64,000 nt of DNA from Streptomyces sp. CG1 (GTDB taxonomy: Bacteria > Actinomycetota > Actinomycetes > Streptomycetales > Streptomycetaceae), in NCBI RefSeq assembly GCF_041080625.1, contig NZ_CP163518.1, forward strand, positions 6,255,501 through 6,319,500, given 5' to 3'. The number at the start of each line of letters is the position of its first letter. Positions within the stretch are counted from its first letter, which is position 1. Position numbers and translations under genes: made by a program. A model generated the notes under the pieces. The model was not told where the DNA came from, searched no databases, and saw nothing but the letters and a program-made list of their open reading frames with translations. This document shows, in pieces, positions 7,997-55,610 of the stretch.

Positions 7997-8193
7997 GGGT
8001 CCCCCAGATGAGTACTGCCGTACGAGGAATAAAGGCACGCGCATTTTATGCACACGCAATCAACTCTGACCAGGGTCCGGCTGGTGCGAGGCTGTGACGC
8101 TGCGGTGACGCGGAAGCCGAGGCGAACCGACACACTGGTGGGCAGGACGCGTACGACCGGATCGCGCGACGCCGGGGGAGTGAGGGAAAACCG

Positions 8194-9423
8194 ATGTCTC
8201 GACTCAGCTTCGAGAAGAAGCGGGCGCAGCAGCCCGCGGCGCATCCGGCGGTGGTACCGGTCCGGGTGTTCGGCGCGGGAGGTGCGTCGGTGGGTGGGAC
8301 CTCGGTCGTGGCGGCGCCGGGCGAGGACATCCAGCAGGCCGTCCTCAACCACCTCCAGCGCCTGGCCATCAGCCTCGGCACCCCCATACGCGCCACGATC
8401 CACGACGACAGCGCGGGCTGTGTGGTTCCCCTGGAGGTCTCGGCGGACGGCTCCAGCCGGGTGACCGGGGAACCCGTACGGGTGGCTTCACCGGAGGCCG
8501 CCTGGGAGGGCGTGCCGCAGGGCGTGAACGCGGTGCCCTCACCCGTGGGGGTGCGGGACGTACCCTCGCCCGAGAACCCGGCGCCCGTGCCGGCCGGGAC
8601 GGTGCGGGTGCCGACGGGACAGTTCGGTCCGGCACCGGTCATGCCGGCCAGGCAGGCACCGACGCCCGCCACCGAGGTCCGGGACCCCGAGCCCGCCTAC
8701 ACGGCGCCCGCCTCCGCCCCGATCCCTGTGCCCACCCCCGCGGCCCCCGACTTCGCCCCGCTCCCGAACTCGACACCGGCCCCCGTGGCCCCGGCCCCCG
8801 CCCCGCTCCCGGGCTCCAAGCCGGCAACCATGGCCCCCGCCTCCGCTGCCGCCCTGTATCTCGAGCCCGACCCCGGTCCCACCCACACCCCCGCGCGAGG
8901 CTTCGACGCCGTCGCCGAGGAGGTGCTCGGGGACGGGCCCGTGACCGAGACCGCGGAGGGGGCCGAGTTGCTCACCGGGCCGATGACGCGGATCAACGAG
9001 GCCGTGCGGGCCGGGCGTATCGAGGCGGCGGCGGAACTCGCCGACCATGCGGTCATCGAGGCGACCACCGCGCTGGGCCCCCGTCACGCCGAGGTGCTGC
9101 ACCTGCGCGAACTGGCCGCCTATATCGCCTACTTGGGAGGCGAGCCGGTCCGGGCCTTCCAGCTGTCCCTGGACCTGGCCCGGCTGCGCCGGCAGGCGCG
9201 GGACGCGGAGGCCGCCTACGGCAATGTGCAGAGCGCGGCGACCGCGTGGCGTGCGGTGCGTGACCCCGAGGAGGGCCTGCGGCTGGGCCGGGACCTGATC
9301 GAACTGTGGACGGACCTCGCCACCGAGGCGGGCCCGGCAGCCGACGACCCGCAGCCGCTGGAGTCCGCCCGCGCCCGTATGGTCCGCCTGACCGACCGGG
9401 CGGCCCGCGCCGCACAGCCGTAA
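8194..9423 (+). CDS. Proline-rich protein with C-terminal helical (TPR-like) region, function unknown
   Basis: This 409-residue protein has three parts. Residues 1-100 are a compact domain (FEKKRAQQPAAHPAVVPVRVFG and onward). Residues 105-245 form a Pro/Ala-rich linker with many P-x-P steps and no predicted fold. Residues 255-405 form a run of amphipathic helices (RINEAVRAGRIEAAAELADH, EVLHLRELAAYIAYLGGEP) that looks like tetratricopeptide repeats. It has no signal peptide or membrane segment, so it should be cytosolic. TPR proteins bind partner proteins, and the linker would space the two folded ends. The gene stands alone between divergent and convergent neighbours. I do not recognise a specific function. 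Confidence 0.65.
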   Translation: MSRLSFEKKRAQQPAAHPAVVPVRVFGAGGASVGGTSVVAAPGEDIQQAVLNHLQRLAISLGTPIRATIHDDSAGCVVPLEVSADGSSRVTGEPVRVASPEAAWEGVPQGVNAVPSPVGVRDVPSPENPAPVPAGTVRVPTGQFGPAPVMPARQAPTPATEVRDPEPAYTAPASAPIPVPTPAAPDFAPLPNSTPAPVAPAPAPLPGSKPATMAPASAAALYLEPDPGPTHTPARGFDAVAEEVLGDGPVTETAEGAELLTGPMTRINEAVRAGRIEAAAELADHAVIEATTALGPRHAEVLHLRELAAYIAYLGGEPVRAFQLSLDLARLRRQARDAEAAYGNVQSAATAWRAVRDPEEGLRLGRDLIELWTDLATEAGPAADDPQPLESARARMVRLTDRAARAAQP

Positions 9424-9447
9424 CCGGGCGGCCCGCGACAACACGCC

Positions 9448-9927
9448 CTACTGCAGGCAGAATTCGTTGCCCTCCGGGTCCGTCAGCACCAGCCATTCCC
9501 CGCCGGGCTCCTTCACCTCGCGCACGACCTGCGCGCCCAGTGCCTGAAGCCGGGCCAGCTCCGCCGCGCGCCGCTCCGGGCCGGCGTGCAGATCCAGGTG
9601 GAGCCGGTTCTTGACCGTCTTCGGCTCCGGGACGCGCTGGAAGAGCAGGCGCCGGCCCCGTCCGGTGCCGGTCTCCGGGTCGTACGGGTCGTCGGGATGC
9701 CGTACGGCGATCAGGTCACGGAAGGCGGGGCGGCCGTGGTACTCGACCGTGGCCTCGCCGGGCAGCGCGCCCGCGGACAGCAGCCGTTCGACCAGGGCGC
9801 TGTTGTCCTCGGCCGTGTAGCGCAGCGCGGCGGCCCAGAAATCGGCCTGTGCGTGCGGGTCGGCCGCGTCGATGACGAGCTTCCAGTGCAGCGGGGCGGG
9901 GACCTCGGTGGGTGACTGAGTCGACAT
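9448..9927 (-). CDS. VOC family (glyoxalase/bleomycin-resistance fold) protein
   Basis: This 159-residue protein has the paired beta-alpha-beta units of the vicinal oxygen chelate fold. HWKLVIDAADPHAQADFWAAA opens the first half. LHLDLHAGPERRAAELARLQ opens the second half, and VLTDPEGNEFCLQ forms the conserved C-terminal end. These proteins act as glyoxalases, dioxygenases or drug-binding proteins. The metal ligands are not complete enough to choose. An ATG at 9927 preceded by GGTGAG was preferred to the GTG two codons earlier. It converges with the TPR-like gene. Confidence 0.85.
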   Translation of the reverse strand: MSTQSPTEVPAPLHWKLVIDAADPHAQADFWAAALRYTAEDNSALVERLLSAGALPGEATVEYHGRPAFRDLIAVRHPDDPYDPETGTGRGRRLLFQRVPEPKTVKNRLHLDLHAGPERRAAELARLQALGAQVVREVKEPGGEWLVLTDPEGNEFCLQ

Positions 9928-10024
9928 GCTCACCAGTTATAGCGGCGAGCACTGACATCAGCGGCGTCCACCGGATCGCACGCCCCAGGGGTTCGGTGGC
10001 CCACCGGTTCGGGGATCCGCCGGT

Positions 10025-10975
10025 TCAGGCCTCCACGGGTGCGGAGTCGGGCGTGTCCACCCGGGGCGGGCCAAGAGGCTCCCTCGGCCTGCGTGCGGTG
10101 CGCAGCGCGTCGCCCGTGAGCAGCAGCAGCGCCAGCCATACGAGCGCGAACCCGGCCCAGCGCTCGGGCGGCATGGCCTCGTGGAAGTAGAGGATGCCGA
10201 GCAGGAACTGGAAGACGGGCGCCAGATACTGCAGCAGGCCCAGCGTGGACAGCGGCACGCGGATGGCCGCCGCGCCGAAGCAGACCAGCGGCAGCGCGGT
10301 GACGACACCGGTGGAGGCGAGCAGGGCCGCGTGCCCGGCGCCGTCGTTCAGGAAGCTCGCCTTGCCGTGCGCGCCGAGCCACAGGAGATAGCCGAGCGCG
10401 GGCAGGAACTGGATCGCGGTCTCGGCGGCCAGCGACTCGACACCGCCGAGGCCGACCTTCTTCTTGACCAGGCCGTACGTGGCGAACGAGAAGGCGAGGA
10501 CCAGCGAGATCCACGGCGGCCGGCCGTAGCCGACGGTCAGGACGACGACGGCGGCGAAGCCGGTCGCGACCGCAACCCACTGCACCGGCCGCAGCCGCTC
10601 CTTCAGCAGCAGCACGCCCATCGCGATGGTCACCAGCGGGTTGATGAAGTACCCGAGGGAGGCCTCGACCACATGGCCGGAGTTCACGGACCAGATGTAG
10701 ACGCCCCAGTTCACGGTGATGACGGAGGCGGCCAGGGCGACCAGCCCGAGCCGGCGCGGCTGGCGCAGCAGCTCTCCGGCCCAGGCCCAGCGCCGTACGA
10801 AGAGCAGGGCCACGGCGACGACGGCGAGGGACCACACCATGCGGTGGGCGAGGATCTCCACCGCTCCGGCGGGCTTCAGCAGCGGCCAGAACAGGGGCAC
10901 CAGACCCCACATGCCGTAGGCGGCGAAGCCGTTGAGCAGGCCTATTCGGTGCTCACCCCTGGACGTCCCGGTCAC
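10025..10975 (-). CDS. rarD: EamA/RarD family transporter
   Basis: This 316-residue membrane protein has about ten hydrophobic segments and the RarD pattern: an opening GFAAYGMWGLVPLFWPLLK, then EILAHRMVWS, and later WGVYIWSVNSGHVVEASLGY with FINPLV. The family belongs to the drug/metabolite transporters; its cargo is not firmly known, though chloramphenicol resistance has been linked to some members. The start is chosen at the ATG giving MTGTSRGEHR. No partner genes are adjacent. Confidence 0.9.
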   Translation of the reverse strand: MTGTSRGEHRIGLLNGFAAYGMWGLVPLFWPLLKPAGAVEILAHRMVWSLAVVAVALLFVRRWAWAGELLRQPRRLGLVALAASVITVNWGVYIWSVNSGHVVEASLGYFINPLVTIAMGVLLLKERLRPVQWVAVATGFAAVVVLTVGYGRPPWISLVLAFSFATYGLVKKKVGLGGVESLAAETAIQFLPALGYLLWLGAHGKASFLNDGAGHAALLASTGVVTALPLVCFGAAAIRVPLSTLGLLQYLAPVFQFLLGILYFHEAMPPERWAGFALVWLALLLLTGDALRTARRPREPLGPPRVDTPDSAPVEA

Positions 10976-11084
10976 CGGCCCCTCCCTCTCACATCAGGCA
11001 TGCGAGAACGAAGGTAGCGCCGGGCGCCCCGCCTGTCATGTGTGTATCGGCATACGGTCATGACAGGCGAGGGTAGGGGAGAGA

Positions 11085-11939
<855 letters not shown>

Positions 11940-12004
11940 GGTTCAGAACTCCTAGTGGGGGTGCCTTGTGACACTCACCCTAGGAGGTGCACTAACCAAA
12001 CGAA

Positions 12005-12029
12005 AGTACCCACTTTGAAGTAAGGTACT
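12005..12029. promoter_or_regulatory. Candidate HxlR operator
   Basis: AGTACC at 12005-12010 and GGTACT at 12024-12029 form a perfect 6-base inverted repeat separated by 13 bases. It sits three bases before the HxlR gene start and about 70 bases from the divergent reductase start. HxlR proteins bind such GTAC-type repeats as dimers, so this site could control both genes. Confidence 0.5.
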
Positions 12030-12032
12030 GGC

Positions 12033-12437
12033 ATGGCAGTAAGCAAGAACGCGGTGGACGTCGAGGCCATGTGCCCCTACCGGCTCATCCTGGAGCACGT
12101 CACCAGCCGCTGGGGTGTCCTCGTCCTGATCGGGCTGCTGGAGCGGCCGTACCGGTTCAGCGAGCTGCGCCGGGCGATCAGTGGCTTCGGTGGGCGGACC
12201 GTCAGCGAGAAGATGCTCACCCAGACCCTGCAGACCCTGGAGCGCGACGGCCTGGTCCACCGGGACGCCAAGCCGGTCATCCCGCCCCGTGTCGACTACT
12301 CGCTCACCGGCCTCGGCCGTGAGGCGGCGGAGCAGGTGCGCTCCCTGGCCCAGTGGACACATGACCGCATGCCGGCGGTCGAAAAGGCCCGCCAGGCATA
12401 CGACGAGGCCCGGGAAATCCAGTCCCGGGCCTCGTAG
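12033..12437 (+). CDS. HxlR family winged-helix regulator
   Basis: This 134-residue regulator has the HxlR layout. A Cys-containing start (MCPYRLILEHVTSRWGVLVL) precedes the winged helix with FSELRRAISGFGGRTVSEKMLTQTLQTL, and the wing is VPPRVDYSLT-like (here IPPRVDYSLTGLG). Single conserved Cys residues in this family sense quinones and aldehydes; Cys at residue 13 is a candidate. It is read away from the NmrA-like reductase, which it probably represses, and also likely controls itself through the inverted repeat overlapping its leader. Confidence 0.9.
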   Translation: MAVSKNAVDVEAMCPYRLILEHVTSRWGVLVLIGLLERPYRFSELRRAISGFGGRTVSEKMLTQTLQTLERDGLVHRDAKPVIPPRVDYSLTGLGREAAEQVRSLAQWTHDRMPAVEKARQAYDEAREIQSRAS

Positions 12438-12450
12438 CCAAGCGAAGGTG

Positions 12451-13504
<1,054 letters not shown>

Positions 13505-37559: not shown

Positions 37560-37641
37560 GGCGGTGTGCCCGAGCGGCCAAAGGGAGCAGACTGTAAATC
37601 TGCCGGCTCAGCCTTCCCAGGTTCGAATCCTGGCGCCGCCA
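37560..37641 (+). tRNA. tRNA-Tyr (anticodon GTA)
   Basis: An 82-base class II tRNA with a long variable arm. The acceptor stem pairs GGCGGTG with CGCCGCC, and A is the discriminator base. The anticodon GTA is at 37594-37596, and GGTTCGAATCC is the T-loop region. CCA is not encoded. The 3' part from 37590 on is also the attL core of the integrated element, which supplies an identical 3' end, so the tRNA stays whole. Confidence 0.96.
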
Positions 37642-37650
37642 CACGGGAAC
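37590..37650 (+). repeat. attL: left 61-bp core repeat of the integrated element
   Basis: These 61 bases (the tRNA-Tyr 3' half from just before the anticodon, plus nine bases downstream) recur without a difference at 55550-55610. The sequence left of 37590 and right of 37650 differs from that around the second copy, which fixes the ends of the repeat. Site-specific recombination between the two would excise the element and leave one intact tRNA gene. Confidence 0.97.
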
Positions 37651-37796: not shown

Positions 37797-39161
37797 TCAC
37801 GCGCTCTGGCCCAGACGGGCAGAGATCTTGGCGTTCGCGGCCTCGTCTCCGTCCTTGAGGAACTTGGCGTACACGCGGAAGAGCACGGCCACGCTGTGGC
37901 CGGCGCGCTCCGCCACAAGCTGAGGTTCGACGCCGGAGCTGAGCCACGTGGACACCGCAGCATGACGAAGGTCGTACGGCCGCTTGGCCAACACCGACTC
38001 GAACTCCGTCGGGGTCAGTGCTCGCGAGCGAGCCTCAGCCCAGACTTCGCCGTAACCGGTGTCCTGGATCAACCCGCCGCGCATCGTCTGGAACACCCGA
38101 AGGTCGGCGGCCGTGCCATATGCGGTGAGATGCCATCGCAGCAGGGCGACCAGTTCAGGCGGAATCGGCACGCGCCGAACCGCTTTACGTGGGCGATGCT
38201 TCAGTCCCTTCTTCTCGTGTGCCTCGCCACTGTCCGTCCAGGCCGTACCGGAGCGGGGGCGTGTCTCACGGAGCCGGAGCAGACCCCACCCGCGACGCGG
38301 CAGATCACAGTCCCCGACTCGCAATCCGATGACTTCGGCTGGCCGTGCAGCCGCGTAGTACATGCAGCCGAAGAAAGCCATGAGCCGTCGGCCACGCTTG
38401 CTCTGATCCCGCACAGCAGCCAGCAGCTTCGCCGCTTGCGCGGGATTCGGCACGCATTCCGGGTCCACCTCCTCTACAACCTGCTCGGGTGCCGTCCACT
38501 TGATCCGATCCAATGGGTTGTCGCTGAGCAATTCAGCGTCTACCGCGAATTCGAGCGAGTTGTAGAAGATTGCGCGCTTTCGGCTGATTGTTCCCGGTGC
38601 AGCGGTCGTCCCGTCCAGCTTCTTCGACAACGCGCTCAGAGCGGCGCGTACTACAAGGCGGTCGGACAGCGCCGACATAGGCAGCGACTTGCGCTTGAAC
38701 CAGTCCAGAACCTTGACCACGTCGGCGGGGGTTTCCTCGTCCCACCGGTTCTTGTTGAAGGCCCAACTGTAGAGGGCACGTCGGACATCCCTCTTGTCCG
38801 GCATTCCCTTTGTGTCCTTCACGAAGGCGGGCGTCACTGTGGCCATGGCCTCAGCCAGCGTGCGGCGGGTATTGCCGGGGGAGTCGTCCCACTTCATCGC
38901 GATGTAGTTCCGGGCGTGCTCGTACCACGAGATGTCCCGGTTCTTGTCGACCATGGACTTCGGCAGACCGCTGTCCACGTCGAACGGCTCTCCGTCGCGC
39001 GCAGCCGAGATGAGTTGGGCTCGGCGACTGTCCGCCAGGCCCTGAGTGAGGAATGACTCCGAATGAGGGCGGGTGCCCACCTTCCAACGGAGTTGATAGG
39101 GCTTCCGGTAATCACGCTTCCGGATGGCCCAGATCTTGACGGTGTAGCTCCACTCAGTCAC
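37797..39161 (-). CDS. int: Tyrosine-recombinase integrase of the element
   Basis: This 454-residue enzyme inserts and excises the element at tRNA-Tyr. The N-terminal part holds an arm-binding region, then a SAM-like core-binding domain (near SMVDKNRDISWYEHARNYIA and on), then the catalytic domain. Catalytic residues visible are Arg in ARPAEVIGLRVGD, the H-x-x-R-type box in YDLRHAAVSTW, and the nucleophile Tyr in AGHSVAVLFRVYAKFL. The GTG at 39161 overlaps the xis stop by four bases, so int is translated after xis. The gene reads toward attL, as in pSAM2 and SLP1. Confidence 0.95.
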   Translation of the reverse strand: MTEWSYTVKIWAIRKRDYRKPYQLRWKVGTRPHSESFLTQGLADSRRAQLISAARDGEPFDVDSGLPKSMVDKNRDISWYEHARNYIAMKWDDSPGNTRRTLAEAMATVTPAFVKDTKGMPDKRDVRRALYSWAFNKNRWDEETPADVVKVLDWFKRKSLPMSALSDRLVVRAALSALSKKLDGTTAAPGTISRKRAIFYNSLEFAVDAELLSDNPLDRIKWTAPEQVVEEVDPECVPNPAQAAKLLAAVRDQSKRGRRLMAFFGCMYYAAARPAEVIGLRVGDCDLPRRGWGLLRLRETRPRSGTAWTDSGEAHEKKGLKHRPRKAVRRVPIPPELVALLRWHLTAYGTAADLRVFQTMRGGLIQDTGYGEVWAEARSRALTPTEFESVLAKRPYDLRHAAVSTWLSSGVEPQLVAERAGHSVAVLFRVYAKFLKDGDEAANAKISARLGQSA

Positions 39162-39367
39162 GCGGCTTCCAATTCTTCCTTGAAGGCGTCCAGGACACTC
39201 CGGCGCACGCAAATGCGGCCGGACGGCGTACGGCGGGCTTCCGGCGCGTAACCGCGATCGCGCCACCGATACCAGGTAGGGCGGCTGATGCCGAGTTCGT
39301 CCAGGACGTCAGGCAGGGGTACCAGCTCGTCCTTCGGCGCACGGCGCCGACGGGTCGGCGTGCTCAT
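39158..39367 (-). CDS. xis: Excisionase (MerR-like helix-turn-helix)
   Basis: This 69-residue protein is of the excisionase type: PLPDVLDELGISRPTWYRWR is the helix-turn-helix, followed by the short wing GRICVRRSVLDAF. It bends att DNA to direct the integrase toward excision. The ATG follows GAGGAGATC. The stop overlaps the int start. An Arg-rich stretch at its start (TRRRRAP) is usual in the actinomycete family. Confidence 0.92.
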   Translation of the reverse strand: MSTPTRRRRAPKDELVPLPDVLDELGISRPTWYRWRDRGYAPEARRTPSGRICVRRSVLDAFKEELEAA

Positions 39368-40145: not shown

Positions 40146-41546
40146 CTAGCTCTGGTCGGCGGCGCAGAGCGCGACCCCGGTGTAGGTGCGTACCCGGCTT
40201 TCGCCGTCGCGGGGGCGGGTGAGGGTGAGTTGGGGGATGACGGCGAGCAGGTTGCGGCCGAAGACCTGTTTGGTGCCGGGGCGGACGTTGTTGTCTTCGG
40301 CCCACTCCCGCCAGACCGTCCACAGCGCGTCCACGGGCACACTGCACGTGGGTCCGGTGGCGCAGCGTTCGCGGACGAACGCGCTGGTGGGCGACGCGGT
40401 GTCCTGCATGGTGGTGACCGCTTCACGGCTGGATGCCGGTTCGGTGATCCGGCCCGTCTGCTGGAGGCGGGCGAGTCCGTCCAGGGCCCAATTGAGGATG
40501 CCGGGCATCTCGGCAACCAGCCGGTCGAAGAGGGTGGGGTCTTCCTTGCCCAGCCACGACACCCGCATGTTGAGCAGCACGAACCGCTTGGCGATGACGC
40601 CGGAGGAGTCGCCGAAGTGCGGCAGCTCGTTGGACAGGATCACCAGCCGCGTGGGGAGCTTGCCGGTCCACACTTCCCGGTACTTGCGGTCGATGTCGAT
40701 CGTGTCCTCACCCGAGATGGTCAGCAGCCGCTCTACAACCCCGCTGTTGTCGTTGCCGGACAGCCGGGCGTCGGAGATGACCGCGAGCGGCTTGCCGATC
40801 AGGGTGGACAGACCGAAGTTCGTGCCGAGTCCGGCCAGGGTCGGACCGGCGAGGTTCTCCTTGCCGACCAGCTCTTTCAATACGCGGGCGATGGTGCCCT
40901 TGCCGGAACGGGACGGGCCGACCATGAGAAGGATCTTCTGTTGGTCGGTGCGGCCGGAGAGGACGTAACCGAACCACTGCTGAAGCGCGGTGATGGCGTC
41001 GGGGTCCTCGGGCCAGATCTGCGACAGGAAGTGATGCCATGTCGGCGCGGTCGCGGTGGGGTCGTAGGGGAAGGGCACGGAGACGAGGTTGAAGAAGCCG
41101 GGGCTGTGCGGCAGCAGCGCGCGGTCCCGGATGCGCAGCAGCCCGTTCTCACACGCCACGATCGGGCCGTCGTCCTGCCCGCCCTCGCCGTCGAGCCACA
41201 CGGGGGCGTCCAAGTCGGTGGGCAGCAGGGTGATGGCTCCGAGCGCGTCGAACAGGTTGCTGATCTTCTGCTTGGTGGGGGCCCAGGCGCGTTCCTCGAA
41301 CTCCCCGTCCTTGACCGGGGCGAGGTAGACGACGTGTTCCAGGCGCTCGTACATGGCTTTGCGTACCTGGGCTTCGTCCAGCTCCCGCCAGCAGATACCC
41401 GTCCAGCGCATCCACGAGCCGCGCCAGCGCCGGTAGACAAGCTGTCCGTCCTCGCTCTGCCAGTCGGGCAGGAGACGTCGGGCGACGGCCAGGGGGTTGG
41501 ACGGCGCGGGAAGTTCCTCGGTCTCGGGGGCGGGGCGGTCCATCAT
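40146..41546 (-). CDS. P4-family plasmid/phage primase-helicase (replication protein)
   Basis: This 466-residue protein has an N-terminal D5_N-like part and an SF3-type helicase domain with Walker A VGPSRSGKGT, a Walker B/acidic stretch near LAVISDARLSG, and sensor region LVILSNELPHFGD. The C-terminal winged part ends with the SRVRTYTGVAL stretch. It is expected to unwind the element at its origin and act with the prim-pol encoded two genes upstream. The ATG at 41546 overlaps the previous stop (ATGA). The plus-strand GC-rich antisense frames across it are shadows. The candidate origin lies right after its stop. Confidence 0.9.
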   Translation of the reverse strand: MMDRPAPETEELPAPSNPLAVARRLLPDWQSEDGQLVYRRWRGSWMRWTGICWRELDEAQVRKAMYERLEHVVYLAPVKDGEFEERAWAPTKQKISNLFDALGAITLLPTDLDAPVWLDGEGGQDDGPIVACENGLLRIRDRALLPHSPGFFNLVSVPFPYDPTATAPTWHHFLSQIWPEDPDAITALQQWFGYVLSGRTDQQKILLMVGPSRSGKGTIARVLKELVGKENLAGPTLAGLGTNFGLSTLIGKPLAVISDARLSGNDNSGVVERLLTISGEDTIDIDRKYREVWTGKLPTRLVILSNELPHFGDSSGVIAKRFVLLNMRVSWLGKEDPTLFDRLVAEMPGILNWALDGLARLQQTGRITEPASSREAVTTMQDTASPTSAFVRERCATGPTCSVPVDALWTVWREWAEDNNVRPGTKQVFGRNLLAVIPQLTLTRPRDGESRVRTYTGVALCAADQS

Positions 41547-41893
41547 GCGGCGTGCCTCCCTTCCTGCGGGTTGCGGAGCGGGCATGCGTCGCGGTGGGCT
41601 TCGTGGTCGGCGATCAGGGCCAGTACGCGACGCGCGCCGAACGCGCGTCGATCCCAACCGCACAGGCACGTCGACGTTGCCGTCGGCGTGGCGCCGCGCG
41701 GCGCGGTGATGCGCAGCCACGCCACGGGGTACCGGCCGTCGCCTGCCTCCGGGGCAGAACCAAGAGCAGTTCGGACGCCCTTGCGGGCGGCGCCTTTCGG
41801 CTCGCCTACGGCCGCCATGTCCACAGGCTGTGGAGCGGCAGGCGGGCGGCCGGTGGCCGGGGCAAGGCTCTTAGAAGGCGGCGGATTGGTCAT
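41543..41893 (-). CDS. Small protein with a Cys/His cluster between the two replication genes
   Basis: This 116-residue protein has a Pro/Ala-rich first half and a compact second half. The second half holds C-x-C, then H-x2-H-x3-C in TCLCGWDRR and ADHEAHRDACPLRN, a likely zinc site. Its start overlaps the prim-pol stop, and its stop overlaps the helicase start, so the three are coupled. It may help the replication proteins; no known family is assigned. Confidence 0.75.
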   Translation of the reverse strand: MTNPPPSKSLAPATGRPPAAPQPVDMAAVGEPKGAARKGVRTALGSAPEAGDGRYPVAWLRITAPRGATPTATSTCLCGWDRRAFGARRVLALIADHEAHRDACPLRNPQEGRHAA

Positions 41894-42813
41894 GCCGCCC
41901 TCCCACCAGGCGTGTTCTCGCTGATGGACCAGTCCAGGGCGCGCCGGATTACGTCGTCGTAGTAGCGCTGGGACTGGGTTGCGTTGCCCGCCACCGAACT
42001 ACTAAGAGCCTGCTCAACCTCGACGCGGGTGAGGTCGCCGGATGCGACCAGCCGACCCAGTGCGCGTGCGGCCCGCAGCAGGGTGGCGTTGCGGGTGCCG
42101 TCGGGGGCGTGGGCCACGTTGGCGGCCTCGTTGCGCAAGGCTGCCGCCGCGTATCCGCCTGTACGGGTGGTGAACGGCACCAGGGCCACCTGTGCGGGCT
42201 TCTGAGGCGGCTTCAGGGCCTCGAACAGCCAGTCGGGCAGGGGGACAGGATCGCGGTCGTCCAGGACCGTGTACGAGCCGTCCCGGGTGGTGCTGCCGGC
42301 AGCGACCACGTACCCGCCCCACCCTCGGGTGTCGATCTTCTTGGCCAGTCGTCCGGCAGTGTTGTGCAGGCGGACGCCGGGGGGCTGAGTGAAGTACAGA
42401 TGCTCACCACCGCGTGCGGTCCGCACCCGGTAGGTCGCAGGGGCAGCCTCTCCGGCGCGCTCGCAGAGCGCTGTGAAGTTGGTGACGCCGTCAGGCGTTC
42501 CTTTTGGTTCTTGAGGCTTGAGCGTGTCCAGGTCCACCACGAGCAGCCCGGACGGGCCGGTGGCGATCCCGACGTTGTACGGCTGCTGAGCCCAGGCGGC
42601 GATCAGAAGTTCGGTGTCGGTGGTGGCGCGCTGCTCGGGCTTCTTGTGCCCGTCGGCGCACCGACCGGTGCCGGGGCAGTGCTCCTCTGCGTGCCCGGCC
42701 GGCCGCTTGTCCCAGGGGCGCAGCGGGATGACGTGCCAGCCACGCTGCGTGGCCTGCGTCGCCCACGCCAGCAGGCCCAGACGGACCAGATCCGTGGTCG
42801 CGAGCGCGGTCAC
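41890..42813 (-). CDS. Bifunctional DNA primase/polymerase (prim-pol)
   Basis: This 307-residue protein has the archaeo-eukaryotic primase fold of plasmid prim-pols. It starts with the region RGWHVIPLRPWDKRPAGHAE. Motif I is LLVVDLDTL with paired acids. Motif II is RTARGGEHLYF, and the GGYVVAAGS strand completes the site. A helical PriCT-like region follows at residues 240-300 (NATLLRAARALGRL). It should make primers, and perhaps extend them, for the SF3 helicase encoded downstream. A Cys-containing insert (EEHCPGTGRCADGH) near residue 40 could bind zinc. The GTG start overlaps the stop of a 31-codon reading frame. Confidence 0.9.
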   Translation of the reverse strand: MTALATTDLVRLGLLAWATQATQRGWHVIPLRPWDKRPAGHAEEHCPGTGRCADGHKKPEQRATTDTELLIAAWAQQPYNVGIATGPSGLLVVDLDTLKPQEPKGTPDGVTNFTALCERAGEAAPATYRVRTARGGEHLYFTQPPGVRLHNTAGRLAKKIDTRGWGGYVVAAGSTTRDGSYTVLDDRDPVPLPDWLFEALKPPQKPAQVALVPFTTRTGGYAAAALRNEAANVAHAPDGTRNATLLRAARALGRLVASGDLTRVEVEQALSSSVAGNATQSQRYYDDVIRRALDWSISENTPGGRAA

Positions 42814-42905
42814 GCTGCCACCCCGAGACGAGCGGTGGCGCGGGCGGTGAGGAAGGTGCGGCCGGACAGGGCGTGCACTCGCCCGATGTCGGTCGGATGG
42901 GTCAT
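42810..42905 (-). CDS. 31-codon reading frame coupled to the prim-pol gene
   Basis: ATG at 42905 follows TGGAGG at ideal spacing. The frame reads MTHPTDIGRVHALSGRTFLT and ends with TGA overlapping the prim-pol GTG (GTGA). This is either a real small protein or a leader that couples translation of the replication genes. It is too short to show codon bias. The alternative, a prim-pol starting further upstream, is less likely because the in-frame upstream sequence has no good ribosome binding site. Confidence 0.55.
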   Translation of the reverse strand: MTHPTDIGRVHALSGRTFLTARATARLGVAA

Positions 42906-42993
42906 GCTGGGTGACCTCCACTGTTCAGTTGGATGGGTGGATCAAGGGCGGCCCCGGGTCTTTGGCGAGATGAGGGGGCCGCCCTTGGCGTAG

Positions 42994-44657: not shown

Positions 44658-46781
44658 TCAGGAAGCGGAAGTGGAACCGGTGTCGTCGCGGTCGGCGAGC
44701 GCGCGGGCGATGCGGTCGCGGGCGATGGTCATCTTGCCGTCGGACTTGTACGGCTCGGCTCCGGTGCCGTCCAGCACACCGGTGAGGTTCAGGAACGACC
44801 AGCCGCCGTAGGTGTCAGCGTCCAGCGCGGCGAGCCGGGCGAGGACGTCCTTGGTGCGCATGCGGGCCGCATCTCCGATCACCTGCGCGATGTCGGCGAG
44901 CGGATCCCGTTCCTCGTCGTCGGACTCGATGGCGTGGAGGGTGACGACGCCGGAGCGCAGGGCCTTGGCCCGGTCGGCGATGACCTGCGCGTCGTCGTCG
45001 CTGATGTAGTGCGTGCGCACGGTGATGGACGACTGGCCCTTGGGGATGTCGATGCCGCTGGACGCGACGACCAGGGTCCCCTGGTCCAGGCCGGGGCGCA
45101 GCAGGTTCGGCGCGGCGCCGCCGTCGACCGCCTTGTCCCCGAGCGCCATGCGGGCCTGCGACTCGGTGCCCAGGGCGAGCGCGGCGCGGGTGTGGGCGCC
45201 CTCACGGACCAGCTTGGGAAGGTTCTGGTCGGTGGGGTCCTGCGTGCCCTGCCACATCAGCACGTTCACGGCACGCCCCTGGTTGTGGATCTTCCGGACG
45301 GCCATGAAATAGCGGGACGTGGCCTTGGAACCGCCGTAGGGGCGGCCGTCCTCGTCCTTGACCGGGCACATGAACGCCACCTGGGCCTCGTCCACGAGGC
45401 AGATCAGCGGCGGGAATTCGATGCCCGGCTCGAACTGACGGGCCTCGATGCGGCGGTTCATCTCATCCACCACGCCTTCGGCCATCTCGGTCGCCTGGAT
45501 GACGTGGTCATCGGTCGGGCCCTGGATAAGCACCGTGGCCAGGCCATCGAACATGACCCAGTCACCGCCCTTGAGATCGGCGAGACGGAACTCCACCGTC
45601 TTGTCGAGCGCGGCCCACAGGGCGAGCGAGCGCAAGGACGCGGTCTTGCCCTGGTTGGACAGACCAGTGATGAGCAGATGGCGCTGATACAGGCTCAGAG
45701 CCGCCGCATCCCCGCGCAGGTCCTGACCCCACGGGGCCCTGCCGGTCTTGTAGTTCGCCGTCATCGTCTCGTCGGTGACCAGCGGAGACGGCCCGATCGG
45801 CTCGTCCAGCGCACCGGAGTCGGCCACCCACAGCCGGACCGTGCGGGCCGCTTGCGGGATGGTGATGAACACCTCGTGCTCATGCCGGGAGAGGTTCTCC
45901 GCCAGCTTGCGGCGGCGCTGCTGGACCTCGACCGTGGACACGCCGGAGGGAAGGGTGACGTCGACCTCGACCCCGCACCCGGCGATGGTGATCGGCCCGA
46001 GCATGGACGCGCCGGCGTCGCCCATCTCCGTGATCGCCTTCCGCAGCGCGGGCACCCCGAGGTCGCGCAGGGCCTTGACCACGATGGACGGGGTGATCGG
46101 CTCGCCCTCACCGCTGCGGACGTTGGCCGGCAGGGCCCACTGAGGGGCTGCCTGCTGGTGGGCGCCGACCGACCACAGGGCGAGCAGCGCCAGGAACGGG
46201 CCGATCGTGATGGCCGGGCCCCACACCACGCGCACGATGGTGATCATCAGGTTGATGAACTTGATGACCGCCATCAGCGGCGTGACCACCTCGGTGGCGT
46301 CCTTGGTGGCGATGGCCATCGCGATACCGAGCAAGACCAGACCGCCGACGCCCATCCCTGCACTGACGGCCGCACCCTTCGCGGCATCGAGCGGCGAGTG
46401 GAGCAGGTCCATGCGGCGGCGGTGACGTGCCTCACGGAAACGCTGCCCGCGCTCTTCCCACTCGGCAGCCGCCTCGTGGTTGCCCGCGGCTTCCGCCGCA
46501 CGGAGCATCCGCTCGTAGCGGGCGGCGGTGCGGCCGTCCCAGGTGCGGCGGGCCGCGATCCGGGCGCCGCCGTAGACGTAGAGGGTGTGCCGGGCGACCG
46601 CGCGGGCGGTGGTCCGGGTGCTCTCGTGGGTGACAAAGACCTTGATGGCGCGGCCGGAGCGCACCCACAGCGGCACGGGCGCCGGCGGTGCGGGGTCGGG
46701 GACCACTGTCAGCGTGGTCACGCTCGCCTCATCGGCGATCGGGTCGGTGTTCTTGTGCAGGTGAACGACGTTCTCGGTCAT
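44658..46781 (-). CDS. FtsK/SpoIIIE-type DNA translocase, conjugal transfer protein (TraB/TraSA type)
   Basis: This 707-residue protein is expected to pump double-stranded element DNA between cells. It has a basic N-terminal region, a pair of hydrophobic helices near residues 138-158 and 170-205, a region resembling the FtsK alpha/beta domain, and the motor domain. Walker A is LLITGLSNQGKTA; Walker B is ICLVDEAQ. The C-terminal 70 residues look like a small winged gamma-type DNA-binding end (ARLAALDADTYGGWSFLNLT). Its start lies in the coupled operon downstream of small zinc-protein genes, and the candidate clt repeats follow its stop. No relaxase is present in the element, consistent with FtsK-type transfer. 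Confidence 0.92.
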   Translation of the reverse strand: MTENVVHLHKNTDPIADEASVTTLTVVPDPAPPAPVPLWVRSGRAIKVFVTHESTRTTARAVARHTLYVYGGARIAARRTWDGRTAARYERMLRAAEAAGNHEAAAEWEERGQRFREARHRRRMDLLHSPLDAAKGAAVSAGMGVGGLVLLGIAMAIATKDATEVVTPLMAVIKFINLMITIVRVVWGPAITIGPFLALLALWSVGAHQQAAPQWALPANVRSGEGEPITPSIVVKALRDLGVPALRKAITEMGDAGASMLGPITIAGCGVEVDVTLPSGVSTVEVQQRRRKLAENLSRHEHEVFITIPQAARTVRLWVADSGALDEPIGPSPLVTDETMTANYKTGRAPWGQDLRGDAAALSLYQRHLLITGLSNQGKTASLRSLALWAALDKTVEFRLADLKGGDWVMFDGLATVLIQGPTDDHVIQATEMAEGVVDEMNRRIEARQFEPGIEFPPLICLVDEAQVAFMCPVKDEDGRPYGGSKATSRYFMAVRKIHNQGRAVNVLMWQGTQDPTDQNLPKLVREGAHTRAALALGTESQARMALGDKAVDGGAAPNLLRPGLDQGTLVVASSGIDIPKGQSSITVRTHYISDDDAQVIADRAKALRSGVVTLHAIESDDEERDPLADIAQVIGDAARMRTKDVLARLAALDADTYGGWSFLNLTGVLDGTGAEPYKSDGKMTIARDRIARALADRDDTGSTSAS

Positions 46782-49761: not shown

Positions 49762-50307
49762 GTGAGCAGCAGCGATTGGGTCAGTAGCTCGGTGCCGTAC
49801 GTGGTACCTCGGGCGAAGGGGGAGGGCGACGCGTGGCAGGACGAAGCCGCAGCCAGGGGAGGGGTGGGCAGTCAGCGCATCGTCCGGGCTGGCGAGGTGC
49901 CCGCGCCTTCGGAAGTGGCGGCGCTGCTGGCGATCGAAGAAGCCAGCGACGTAGTGGTGCGACAGCGGGTCATCTACCTGGATGACCAGCCGACCGAACT
50001 GACCGACACCTACTATCCGGTGGACGTGGCCCGCGGCACGCGACTGGAGGGGGTCGCCAAGATTCGGGGTGGCGCGGTCACGCTCCTCGCTGAACTGGGC
50101 TACACCGCGCATCGCGTCCGCGAGGAAGTTTCGGCGCGGATGCCCACTGGGGCCGAACGGCAAGTACTCGTTCTCACAGACGCCGACCCCGTTCTGTGCA
50201 TGACCCGGGTGACGCTGGACGCCGCCGGTCGGCCCTTCCAGGTTGACGTGTCCGTCTTCCCTGCAAGCGGGCAGCGACTTCGCTACGAACTCGAACCGAG
50301 GAGCTGA
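49762..50307 (+). CDS. UTRA-domain-only protein, a GntR-like protein without the DNA-binding domain
   Basis: This 181-residue protein matches only the ligand-binding (UTRA) part of GntR-type regulators: VVRQRVIYLDDQPTELTDTY, then YYPVDVARGT, IRGGAVTLLAELGYTA and VSARMPTGAER. A winged helix is missing; the first 40 residues are short and polar. The next gene encodes a full GntR-UTRA regulator with the same motifs. Two paralogues in tandem suggest duplication with loss of the HTH; the short form could sense the ligand or heterodimerise with the full form. The GTG start is 49762; a ribosome binding site is weak (GGGGACC). Confidence 0.85.
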   Translation: MSSSDWVSSSVPYVVPRAKGEGDAWQDEAAARGGVGSQRIVRAGEVPAPSEVAALLAIEEASDVVVRQRVIYLDDQPTELTDTYYPVDVARGTRLEGVAKIRGGAVTLLAELGYTAHRVREEVSARMPTGAERQVLVLTDADPVLCMTRVTLDAAGRPFQVDVSVFPASGQRLRYELEPRS

Positions 50308-50308
50308 C

Positions 50309-51076
50309 GTGCCTAAGGCTGAGCAAGACGCCTACGATCGGCGTCCCCTTCACGAGCGCATCGCAGCCGATCTGCGCGACGAGATCATGTCGGGCGATCT
50401 CCCGCCCGGGGCCAGTCTCCCGTCGACTCAGCGGCTCAAGGATCGGTTCGAGGCATCCAACGCGACCGTGCAGAAAGCGCTCCAGGTCCTGAAGGATGAA
50501 CGACTCGTCATCGGCCGCGCCGGCGCGAGCGTCACCGTTCGGGAGCACCGGCAGGACACCATCCGACCGGCCGACACCGGACAGCCGGCACCCCCTGGTG
50601 AGCAGTACTCGTGGCTCACCGTGGCCAACAGGAGAGGAAAGCGCGGCAGCATCGAACTGTTGGATGTCGCGGAAGTGCAGCCGCCGGCGGACGTGACCGC
50701 AGCGCTCGGGCTAAGCGAGGGGGGGACGGCCGTCATGAGGAGCCAAGTCCTCTCGTACGACGACGTGCCGGTTGAACTGGTGAAGTCCTACTATCCTGTC
50801 GAGCTTGCCAGGGGGACAGCGATGACCGAGCGACGGAAGATTCGCGGCGGAACGCCCGCCCTCCTCGCCGAGATCGGGTACCCGCCGCGCCATACGGTGG
50901 ACCGAGTGTCGGCCCGTGTGCCTACTCAGGAGCAGTTCGAGGCGCTGCAATTGCCCAGCGACCTGCCGGTGCTTCGCACGTTCCGCGTGGTCTACAGCGA
51001 CGGTGAACGTCCCATTGAGGTCACGGTGATGGCCAAGGCAGGGCATCTCTATGAGCTTCAGTACGAGTTCGTCTGA
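50309..51076 (+). CDS. GntR family regulator (HutC subfamily, KorSA-like)
   Basis: This 255-residue regulator has the GntR winged helix at residues 8-75 (RIAADLRDEIMSGDLPPGAS and TVQKALQVLKDERLVIGRAG), followed by a UTRA ligand domain with YYPVELARGT and IRGGTPALLAEIGY. In pSAM2 a GntR protein (KorSA) represses the replication and transfer activator; this one probably does the same for the present element. The GTG start follows GAGGAGC, one base past the stop of the UTRA-only gene. A strong hairpin terminator follows. Confidence 0.92.
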   Translation: MPKAEQDAYDRRPLHERIAADLRDEIMSGDLPPGASLPSTQRLKDRFEASNATVQKALQVLKDERLVIGRAGASVTVREHRQDTIRPADTGQPAPPGEQYSWLTVANRRGKRGSIELLDVAEVQPPADVTAALGLSEGGTAVMRSQVLSYDDVPVELVKSYYPVELARGTAMTERRKIRGGTPALLAEIGYPPRHTVDRVSARVPTQEQFEALQLPSDLPVLRTFRVVYSDGERPIEVTVMAKAGHLYELQYEFV

Positions 51077-51133: not shown

Positions 51134-51499
51134 CGTGTGTGTCCAGCTAGACCCAGGTGCACAGCCACATCCGCGACCGCCAGGAGTCGATGTCGCGACC
51201 GGGCCCTCCTCGGGGCGCGCGAGACGGATGGTTGTCCCCTGCGGCCCTCCTCACCCTTGCGTCAGTCGGGCGACGTTCCCGGCCACCCACCAGAGCTTTG
51301 AACGCGCTTTGACTTGCTTCGTCTCTTAGCCATGCGACAGTACGTGCCCACGCTTGGGAGAGCACGCACTCGATTTCCAGCCGATGCCGGGCCGTTCTCT
51401 CGCTTCAGGTGATCGACGGCCCAGACAGGCGGGGCCGGGTCGGCTGCGATGATGGGCGTTCGCCTGATTAACGGTGTGACCACCTGCGACGATGTGAGC

Positions 51500-51892
51500 A
51501 TGCCGACGCATGGAACGCCTCTCTCAGCTGCACTCATCCCCGACTGCACCAAAGCGGAAGCTCACCACGCGGCCTACAGAAGCGCCAAGGCCAACGACGC
51601 GGTCTTTGTGTGTATCGCCCGCCAGGGCCAGCGCTGGATGGTGGAGCTTGACGCTATGGCCAGCAGCGGGCCCACCATCCCGGACCAGGCAGTGGCAGTC
51701 CTGCAGTCCGCGGTTGAAACATTGGTGGTTGCTGGCACAGTGGCGCAGGCCAGTATCGCGCCTGACTACATCTCCATGGGGGCGATCGAGACCGAGGCGA
51801 AGGCGCGCGACATCGCGGCTGCGTTCCATGCCGCTCTGCACGGACTCCGGCAGCTATACATCGCCGTTCCGAGCCAGCGCGGAAGGGCCTAG
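51500..51892 (+). CDS. Hypothetical protein in the cargo region
   Basis: This 130-residue protein is mixed alpha/beta (AYRSAKANDAVFVCIARQGQ and VAVLQSAVETLVVAGTVAQA) and has no known family. It lies between the regulator terminator and the NACHT gene on the same strand. The ATG at 51500 was chosen; an ATG at 51449 adds 17 residues. Composition is lower in GC than the transfer genes, as for the neighbouring cargo gene. Confidence 0.55.
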   Translation: MPTHGTPLSAALIPDCTKAEAHHAAYRSAKANDAVFVCIARQGQRWMVELDAMASSGPTIPDQAVAVLQSAVETLVVAGTVAQASIAPDYISMGAIETEAKARDIAAAFHAALHGLRQLYIAVPSQRGRA

Positions 51893-52409: not shown

Positions 52410-55328
52410 ATGGACTACGACCTGACGCGCCTGGGAAGTCGAGAGTTCGAGCATCTGACCCAAGCTCTGGCCATACAGGTCCTGGGGCCGGGCGTGCAAG
52501 CTTTCGGCGATGGGCCCGACGGCGGGCGCGAGGCCGAATTCCGGGGTCGCCTCAACTTTCCTCACCCTAGTCCGCACGGCCCTTGGAATGGATACGGCGT
52601 TCTGCAGGCCAAGTTCTTGCAGCGACCGCGAGACACAGCAAGAGATACTGCTTGGCTTCTGGCACAACTACGCGCGGAGCTTCGACAGTGGGCAAATCCC
52701 AAGTCGAAGAGGTCTCGCGCAGGGGCAGCACCGGATTACCTGCTATTCGCAACCAACGTTGTCTTGTCGGCAGATCCGGAAGTCGGCGGTATTGACCTTT
52801 TCGAGCGCACTGCGAAAAATCTCGTGGTTGAGCTAAAGTTGTCCGTCAAAGATGTGAAGGTTTGGCATTTCGATCAACTTTGCCGATATTTGGATCTATA
52901 CCCCGGTGTACGGCAGACGTATGGCGGATTGACTACGGCTGGGGACGTGCTATTCCGGCTACGGGACTTCCTCGGCGGCACAGCTGCAGAGTTGGGAGAG
53001 CTTCTTGCTAATCACAGCAGCAAGGAGCTGGCCACTGACCAGTGGGTCAAGCTGGGGCAGGCGGGTGAGGCCGACAATCAGCGTCTGCCGCTGGCCGAAC
53101 TCGCCATTGACCCTACCGCCTCCTACACATCCCCGGACGGAACCCAAGAAGTCGTTTCCCTCGTGAGCCATGTGCTTTCACATGGTGACACTGTTCTCAG
53201 GCCGACTTGCAAGCAAGGGTCACCAGCGCATATCGCAGTGATCGGGGGGCCTGGACAAGGCAAATCAACTGCCAGTCAGATTCTGTGTCAGGTCTATCGA
53301 GTCGCTCTACTGCAAGATGCAAATCATCGTCTTACGTCAGAGACGACTGAAATCATAACGACTTTCATCAATGAGATGGGGAGGATTGGTCTGGATATCC
53401 CCGCCGCGAGGCGATGGCCGATCCGAATAAACCTTAGCGAGTATGCGGATGCAGTTGCCGCAGGCGAAGTTGTCAGCCTTCTCCGATACATTGCAACGGA
53501 GATAAGTCGTCGGACACCGGATATTTCTCCTAATCAGCTGCGTTCTTGGTTGCGGGCATGGCCATGGCTCCTAGTTCTAGACGGTCTGGACGAAGTAGCA
53601 TCGGTTCAGGCGCGCGACGCGGTGATGGAAAGAGTGAACGACTTCATCTTGGAGGCTGCTTCCGTTGATGCTGATCTCCTAATCGTGGCGACTTCACGTC
53701 CGCAAGGTTACAGAGAGGAATTCTCTCCACGGAGTTTTGTTCACATGAGGCTGGAACCGATGGCGGCGAATGAGGCTGTAAGCTATGCGTCCCAGCTTGC
53801 TCGCATCCGTCATTATGGCGACCCTGACACCGCCGAACGCGTTCTGCAAAGGTTGGAAGAAGCTGCCCAGGAAGAGCTCACCTCTAGGCTCATGGGAACA
53901 CCTTTGCAGGTGACGATCATGGCGATCCTGCTTGAACGCCGCGAACGAGTGCCGCAGCAGCGCTACCGTCTCTTCCTTGACTACTACCAGACGATCTACA
54001 ACCGCGAGGCAAGTAAGCCGGGGTATTTGGCTAAGCTCATCGATGATCACCGCGCAGCCATCAATCACTTGCACGAGCGTGTCGGCCTTTTCCTGCAAGC
54101 ACTTTCAGAGCGTCGAGGTGAATCAGACGCCGCCCTTCACCGCTCTGATGTTTCTCAAATTATTGAGGTCTATCTGCATGAAGAGGGGTACAGTTACGCC
54201 GATGCCGCTGCACTTGCCGAACGCATCGTAGATGCCGCTATGCGTCGGTTGATTTTGCTTGTTCCCCACAAGGAAGAGAGCGTGGGCTTTGAGGTGCGAA
54301 GCCTGCAAGAGTTCATGGCGGCACGCGCAATCGTATCTGAAAACCTGAGTGAAACTTGTGCGTTCTTGATCGCTATTTCAGGTTCGGCGCACTGGCGCAA
54401 CACGTGGCTGCTGGCCGCTGGATGCATCTTTAATGATCGTCCGGCAGCACGTGACAGGCTGGTTAACCTGCTCGACGAAATTCAGGTTGCGGATGAACTT
54501 AGCCTGTTCGTCAAACCCGGATCATCCCTTGCCGTGGCGATGATCACTGATGATGTCGCGGCAAAGGCACCTCGCTTCCTCCGAATGCTTACCAAGCATG
54601 CTCTCGAACTACTCGAAGATCCGACCGAGGAATTCGAAGCCTATGACCTGTGCGATGCCTTGTGGAACGTCGGACGCGTGGATGACCCGTCACGTCAAGC
54701 TATCGAACGCGCAATCATAAAGAATGTTGCTGCGGGGAGTCATGGGGCAGTCAATACCTTGCTCACGCTCGGTGCCGAATGGGAAGAAGCGTCTGGTCCG
54801 CTTGCGTATCAGGTGAGAAAACTCGTTCTGGAAGCACGAGAGAAAAAGGAAGACTTGGCGGCCCAACTTGGCGCAAAGCTCCTCTGGCCCTCGCATCTAG
54901 TCAATGGCCTCAACTCGGGTGCCATCAAATTGAAGATGCGTGGATTCTGGGAGGTGATGCGCCCATACGTTGAAACGTCAGGAAATCGCATAGCGGCTGA
55001 TGTGTGTCGCGACATTTTTAATGGCGACAGTATTGGCTTTATGGGCACCCCTGACGGTCAAGAAGTTGCCGTGAATTATCGGACCAAGGGTGGCAATCAA
55101 ACGTACTGGTTGAAGCAAGATACGGGATGGATTGCTTGCCTAATCTCTGTGGCCGAGGCTGTTCCAATTGAGCTATGGATGATCAGGCATCAGATCTGGC
55201 GTACTCTACAGTCCTACCAAGAACGGAAGCCAGTGGACTTCTCGGTTCTCAAGTCGACGCCGACTTTCGAGGACCTAGTCCACTTCCTCGAGCGTCCGAA
55301 TGACGTCCCCCTGCAGTCAGAGTTCTAA
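52410..55328 (+). CDS. Mrr-like nuclease-NACHT NTPase fusion, probable anti-phage defence protein
   Basis: This 972-residue protein joins three parts. Residues 1-150 look like a restriction-endonuclease (Mrr/PD-(D/E)xK) domain: LGSREFEHLTQAL, then FGDGPDGGREAE with Asp37, and LQAKF with Gln66-x-Lys68. Residues 270-560 are a NACHT NTPase: Walker A VIGGPGQGKST (K285), Walker B LLVLDGLDEV (D391 to E395) and ATSRPQGY as the sensor region. Residues 570-972 are helical with no known repeats; this end is the likely sensor. Bacterial NACHT and related STAND proteins bind a phage component, oligomerise, and then fire a nuclease. Composition is clearly AT-richer than its neighbours, so it was acquired separately. 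The ATG at 52410 was chosen because it starts the domain; an upstream TTG is in frame. Confidence 0.88.
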   Translation: MDYDLTRLGSREFEHLTQALAIQVLGPGVQAFGDGPDGGREAEFRGRLNFPHPSPHGPWNGYGVLQAKFLQRPRDTARDTAWLLAQLRAELRQWANPKSKRSRAGAAPDYLLFATNVVLSADPEVGGIDLFERTAKNLVVELKLSVKDVKVWHFDQLCRYLDLYPGVRQTYGGLTTAGDVLFRLRDFLGGTAAELGELLANHSSKELATDQWVKLGQAGEADNQRLPLAELAIDPTASYTSPDGTQEVVSLVSHVLSHGDTVLRPTCKQGSPAHIAVIGGPGQGKSTASQILCQVYRVALLQDANHRLTSETTEIITTFINEMGRIGLDIPAARRWPIRINLSEYADAVAAGEVVSLLRYIATEISRRTPDISPNQLRSWLRAWPWLLVLDGLDEVASVQARDAVMERVNDFILEAASVDADLLIVATSRPQGYREEFSPRSFVHMRLEPMAANEAVSYASQLARIRHYGDPDTAERVLQRLEEAAQEELTSRLMGTPLQVTIMAILLERRERVPQQRYRLFLDYYQTIYNREASKPGYLAKLIDDHRAAINHLHERVGLFLQALSERRGESDAALHRSDVSQIIEVYLHEEGYSYADAAALAERIVDAAMRRLILLVPHKEESVGFEVRSLQEFMAARAIVSENLSETCAFLIAISGSAHWRNTWLLAAGCIFNDRPAARDRLVNLLDEIQVADELSLFVKPGSSLAVAMITDDVAAKAPRFLRMLTKHALELLEDPTEEFEAYDLCDALWNVGRVDDPSRQAIERAIIKNVAAGSHGAVNTLLTLGAEWEEASGPLAYQVRKLVLEAREKKEDLAAQLGAKLLWPSHLVNGLNSGAIKLKMRGFWEVMRPYVETSGNRIAADVCRDIFNGDSIGFMGTPDGQEVAVNYRTKGGNQTYWLKQDTGWIACLISVAEAVPIELWMIRHQIWRTLQSYQERKPVDFSVLKSTPTFEDLVHFLERPNDVPLQSEF

Positions 55329-55549: not shown

Positions 55550-55610
55550 GACTGTAAATCTGCCGGCTCAGCCTTCCCAGGTTCGAATCCTGGCGCCGCC
55601 ACACGGGAAC
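55550..55610 (+). repeat. attR: right 61-bp core repeat
   Basis: All 61 bases are identical to attL at 37590-37650. It holds only the 3' half of tRNA-Tyr; the sequence before it does not form the tRNA 5' half, so it is not a gene. Host DNA resumes right after it. Confidence 0.97.

Follow-up and report, generated by a model that had tools for sequence, protein, structure and literature searches.

A putative nuclease-NACHT immune receptor carried as cargo at the attR end of a tRNA-Tyr-integrated Streptomyces element

Introduction

What is a large, AT-rich gene for a nuclease-like NACHT protein doing at the very end of an integrative element? The question is raised by a 64,000-nt stretch of DNA from Streptomyces sp. 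CG1 (NZ_CP163518.1), hereafter the window, whose positions are used throughout. On its plus strand, a single frame free of internal stops (52410–55328) encodes a protein of 972 amino acids, P0001, and the gene is separated by 221 bp from the attR site of an 18-kb element that resembles SLP1 of Streptomyces coelicolor. The gene very probably serves in immunity against invaders; its product is likely to be an intracellular immune receptor that works as a one-gene system and travels as exchangeable cargo of a tRNA-Tyr-integrating actinomycete element. An earlier note on this DNA had proposed a mobile nuclease-NACHT defense gene, a reading that the analyses below support at the level of sequence. 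The locus joins three topics that are usually studied apart, namely NLR (nucleotide-binding leucine-rich repeat)-type receptors, the Avs4/Mrr nuclease module, and the model mobile elements of actinomycetes.

Results

The N-terminal 170 residues of the protein (52410–52919, plus strand) form a nuclease domain of the Mrr/Avs4 type. The earlier note had recognized an Mrr-like pattern there, D37 and Q66-x-K68, and structural modeling bore this out: residues 1–195, modeled alone, adopt a PD-(D/E)xK nuclease fold, for which the top-ranked solved structure is the N-terminus of Avs4 (PDB 8dgf). The sequence gave no match to the Pfam Mrr family (PF04471), and Mrr_cat was not among the six families found at E 1 or less. 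Profile comparison of Mrr_cat PF04471 with the domain gave an hhalign probability of 93.2 over 73 columns, with the catalytic motif common to both; D37-G-G-R-E41 (52518–52532) and Q66-A-K68 (52605–52613) match the DGGVD and QxK motifs of Mrr, E41 pairing with the second Asp of DGGVD. D37 is invariant in all 114 and K68 in all 117 aligned sequences that have a residue at the respective column, and D37, E/D41, Q66, and K68 are kept in the alignment across distant relatives.

The center of the protein folds as a NACHT-winged-helix unit like those of NOD2, NLRC4, and NLRP3. The NTPase core spans residues 269–470 (53214–53819), and the Walker A (GGPGQGKST, 279–287) and Walker B (DGLDE, 391–395) motifs, described as intact in the earlier note, are indeed so, with K285, D391, D394, and E395 invariant in 120 of 120 aligned sequences. 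The note had also described a 400-residue helical end. The helical character holds, but its first part, residues 471–645 (53820–54344), still belongs to the helical and winged-helix region of the NACHT unit, which ends near RSLQEFMAAR (630–639). Only some 330 residues (approximately 646–972) come after the winged helix. They are helical with small strands at 842–891 and consist of a moderately conserved region (646–770; 54345–54719) and the last ~200 residues (771–972; 54720–55325), which are the most variable region in the alignment of relatives and the likely candidate for the sensor. The whole protein matched none of the NCH or SNaCT C-terminal domains at E 1 in Pfam, which includes one of them, NCH3.

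The family is large, with 1,473 database proteins, the query included, at E 0.001 or less among 7,993 scored candidates. In the named-genome collection, 289 stretches were confirmed and 80 were kept; the relatives among these 80 are mostly from Actinomycetota, but also from Pseudomonadota, Chloroflexota, Planctomycetota, Acidobacteriota, Thermodesulfobacteriota, and Riflebacteria. In a tree of 78 rows, the window's protein groups with that of Streptantibioticus silvisoli (SH-aLRT, the Shimodaira–Hasegawa-like approximate likelihood ratio test, 100). Within the host's genus the gene is patchy, occurring in 4 of 392 genomes (own genome counted) at E 1e-60 and in 4 of 393 at E 1e-100 in a second draw from another center, and it has no fixed context. 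Its guanine-plus-cytosine (GC) content is lower than that of the flanks in 65 of 76 loci. Plasmid records contained a match in 51 of 72,556 cases, many over part of the protein and four reaching 80% coverage. With simple open reading frame calling, no neighbor recurs: of 107 sources, namely the window plus 106 loci, the commonest nonfamily cluster is present in 7. The gene has the look of a single-gene system. Nine distant relatives (L107–L115) lie on contigs classed as viral, and in a Rhodococcus plasmid (NZ_CP042915.1, 543–4260) a relative is split in two, with an annotated IS3 transposase beneath the match.

The nuclease module also occurs on other proteins. A search with residues 1–190 alone gave 347 matches, and among the best 120 of these, which were inspected, the domain was found on NACHT relatives, on TPR-repeat proteins of 1,097–1,548 amino acids, on two WD40 proteins (P0142 and P0146), and on one nSTAND1 protein (P0125). 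The TPR, WD40, and nSTAND1 carriers (P0121–P0123, P0142, P0146, P0125, and others) are 50–59% identical over the nuclease domain, and an Agrobacterium plasmid (L241) encodes a domain with 33.7% identity over residues 2–170 within the operon of an ABC-three component system. Judged from these sequences, one nuclease domain is combined with different NTPase and sensor parts and is therefore re-used, which is the behavior expected of an effector.

The element is integrated in a tRNA-Tyr gene (37560–37642, plus strand), which the attL copy of the 61-bp core repeat (37590–37650) overlaps, and the attR copy (55550–55610) is exactly identical to it. On the minus strand follow genes for a tyrosine integrase of 489 amino acids (37797–39266; 26.6 bits in Pfam, just under the cut-off of 27.1), an excisionase-like HTH_17 protein of 69 amino acids (39158–39367), a D5_N/DUF5906 helicase for replication (40146–41720), a Prim-Pol replication protein (41890–42921), and an FtsK/SpoIIIE, TraB-like transfer protein (44658–46781). 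The position beside the attR of an SLP1-type element, as the earlier note had it, is thus confirmed, and so is the AT-richness of the gene: its GC content is 55.3% (57.6% at third positions) versus 68.7% for the element from the tRNA-Tyr end to the gene.

Is the attR end a usual place for cargo, as had been supposed? At E 1e-90, 211 of the 392 genomes surveyed from the genus encode an integrase related to that of the window; of 40 such loci that were fetched, 32 adjoin a tRNA-Tyr gene and 22 are closed by an att repeat of 28–117 bp. When the cargo slot was defined as the stretch from the last gene common to at least three other elements up to attR, it exceeded 500 bp in 21 of the 22 closed elements, and its GC content was below that of the rest of the element in 21 of 21 (mean 0.613 versus 0.698). 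The cargo mostly differs between elements, with few genes found in two or three of them (L160/L172/L173, L174/L183, and L186/L189). Domain scanning covered 30 of the 49 slot frames of at least 150 amino acids, from 18 of the 22 closed elements. Clear conflict families were found in five of these 18 annotated slots, a raw count with no background rate for comparison: GmrSD_N in L167; DarTG and a DUF4365 protein in L170; ApeA/HEPN in L178; GmrSD_N, STAND-TPR, and a RelA/SpoT protein in L185; and an OLD/AriA-like ATPase and DndB in L188. Three more are suggestive, with a protein kinase (L160), a weak DzbB match (L155), and a WD40 protein (L169), and 10 are without a recognized defense family and include a creatininase, a glycosyltransferase, a pentapeptide-repeat protein, and an acetyltransferase. 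Several slot genes (in L159, L165, L186, L189, and others) matched nothing in Pfam or PADLOC at E 0.001, and the unmatched genes in the L155–L189 range are candidates for unknown immune genes. Independent support for the cargo pattern comes from SLP1 itself, whose type IV restriction gene (ScoMcrA; sco4631) lies near attR in tRNA-Tyr according to the legend of figure S3 in the report on it (PMC3009677). Variable cargo in elements of this kind, including cargo directed against phages, has already been described in print (PMC9513070). Among the side observations, L183 contains backbone segments twice in tandem, which suggests that two elements accreted at one tRNA-Tyr, and L185 (296–10785, oriented), in which neither a TraB-like nor a Prim-Pol gene was detected, has an integrase and an excisionase and carries the GmrSD_N, RelA/SpoT-like, and STAND-TPR genes.

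The closest relative among the loci examined is held by a much smaller island in Streptantibioticus silvisoli (L024). There, a NACHT relative with 66% identity lies in ~5.0 kb (8012–13120) with only an integrase, 55% identical to that of the window, and an excisionase-like gene. The island begins with tRNA-Tyr (8012–8096), and at its far end is a degenerate tRNA-Tyr repeat (13078–13120) of 17 and 14 identical bases, offset by one base. A test that detects only close types, and that also failed to see TraB in several full-size elements, picked up nothing in the island related to the helicase, the Prim-Pol, or the TraB-like protein of the window. The island may be a mini-island or a deletion remnant, either being possible.

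Three other genes precede the nuclease-NACHT gene on the plus strand. A protein with a UTRA domain and no detected GntR DNA-binding domain (49762–50307) overlaps a full GntR/UTRA regulator (50243–51076) and may bind and modulate it. The hypothetical gene at 51449–51892, which the earlier note had suggested as a partner from 51500 onward, matches no Pfam family at E 0.01. It is also found in another element, L153 (85% identity in DNA and 78% in protein), with a partial copy in L179, and was found neither in the other loci then examined, its own excepted, nor in L024. Because L153 has this gene with no NACHT relative found in the 19.9 kb examined and L024 shows the reverse, it evidently goes with the element and does not form a pair with the NACHT gene.

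Discussion

Taking bNACHT25 and bNACHT32 as analogs, and Avs4 for the fold of the nuclease, we propose the following mechanism. At rest, the NACHT unit would hold ADP and the protein would be inactive. The variable C-terminus would recognize a product of the invader, either phage or mobile element, or the effect of that product on a host protein; nucleotide exchange would then allow the NACHT units to assemble, the assembly would bring the Mrr/Avs4-type nuclease domains together to cut DNA, and the cutting would stop the invader or kill the cell. Autoinhibition, oligomerization, the trigger, the DNA target, and the protective outcome are thus what we infer from the analogy, while the nuclease fold with its conserved motif, the NACHT-winged-helix unit, the domain order, the conserved core with a variable end, and the mobility context were established by computation.

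Several results weigh against this interpretation. The protein scores under the curated cut-off of Pfam NACHT, which three of 10 relatives exceed, and PADLOC has no model spanning all 972 residues: its Argonaute-associated nuclease model matches residues 1–44 only (E 4e-4), PDC-S73 residues 1–39 only (E 0.02), and mad8 only the NTPase part (271–549, E 1.3e-3). Short windows elsewhere in the chain (241–270, 301–330, and 571–600) vary as well, so the end is not the only variable part. A search of 50,697 phage records gave no match at E 1e-5, and none of the 40 related integrase loci has a NACHT relative. A custom profile, which failed to detect the integrase of L024 as well, showed a tyrosine recombinase in just six of the 80 loci of relatives. 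Finally, 13 of the 18 annotated slots are without a clear defense family.

The same machinery might instead be triggered by rival plasmids or integrative elements, through their replication or transfer proteins or DNA marks; its role would then be to guard the resident element and the tRNA-Tyr site, not to defend the cell against phages. The frequency of related integrases in the genus, their position beside tRNA-Tyr, and the tandem backbone pieces of L183 show that the site is contested, and therefore a rival element as the trigger is a serious rival to phage; ScoMcrA of SLP1 is described as acting against an element-borne DNA modification system (PMC3009677). This explanation overlaps the immune-receptor interpretation, the trigger alone differing, and we regard it as rather unlikely because the family has spread well past tRNA-Tyr elements and past actinomycetes, and the characterized nuclease-NACHT proteins are described as sensing phage (PMC12169576). 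It is improbable that the nuclease acts as a toxin on cells that lose the element: that a mobile element has a lone nuclease gene at its edge would suit such addiction or stabilization cargo, and the sister slot in L170 carries the DarTG toxin–antitoxin, but no antitoxin candidate was found, no neighbor recurs among the 106 loci and the window, and the architecture is receptor-like with a variable C-terminus. Some actinomycete STAND (signal transduction ATPases with numerous domains) proteins are regulators, but a STAND-type regulator or DNA-binding protein with a noncutting nuclease fold is slightly more improbable still, given the conservation of the four nuclease residues across distant relatives and a gene that is patchy, AT-rich, and without fixed context.

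A broader idea can be put forward tentatively, and we hold it as somewhat doubtful. The attR end of SLP1-type elements might be a standing slot that exchanges whole immune or conflict genes, so that closely related integrase-excisionase pairs bring different immune genes to one chromosomal address; the smallest form would be a 5-kb island of integrase, excisionase, and NACHT genes that moves only its own receptor, and the receptor family would join one nuclease module to several sensor classes. The slot is a simple place to seek further unknown immune genes, as many cargo genes there have no known family. Because the receptor family is large and pairs a conserved core with a variable end, its sensor specificity could be probed in laboratory Streptomyces by swapping the ends of close relatives.

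The protein, with a putative activity and trigger, belongs to the known bacterial nuclease-STAND kind. In bNACHT25 and bNACHT32, a PD-(D/E)xK nuclease on a NACHT protein is described as degrading DNA after phage sensing, and one active-site change as abolishing defense (PMC12169576). The published description of these clade 6 proteins gives the same order of N-terminal PD-(D/E)xK domain, central NACHT, and C-terminal helical region, and P0001 has the bNACHT features of a NACHT with Walker A/B and winged helix and of an N-terminal effector domain; their C-terminal domain is, however, NCH1, to which P0001 has no such Pfam match. Avs4, an antiviral STAND protein, shares the N-terminal Mrr-like nuclease, but has 1,534 residues with a long C-terminal sensor (PDB 8dgf), in contrast to the short part that follows the winged helix here. 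The FE, DGGxD/E, and QxK motifs align with Mrr-type restriction endonucleases (PF04471), whereas P0001 is not a stand-alone restriction enzyme. In the ABC-three component system of L241, the multi-gene operon that includes the nuclease domain also encodes a DUF2326 protein and a middle component, whereas no middle component or ABC ATPase was present among the 10 element proteins scanned for domains and no neighbor recurs in relatives. By published description (PMC3009677, PMC3218068), SLP1 has the same tRNA-Tyr site and a Prim-Pol with a second replication gene, and the window's element shows the SLP1-type features of tRNA-Tyr with direct repeats, integrase and excisionase, two replication genes, and an FtsK/TraB-like gene; the cargo differs, being an HNH type IV restriction enzyme (ScoMcrA) in the description of SLP1 and a nuclease-NACHT gene here. 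As far as our searches go, three things are new: a family of this exact build, the high-identity re-use of its nuclease in different classes of sensor, and the cargo slot at attR, together with the compact island.
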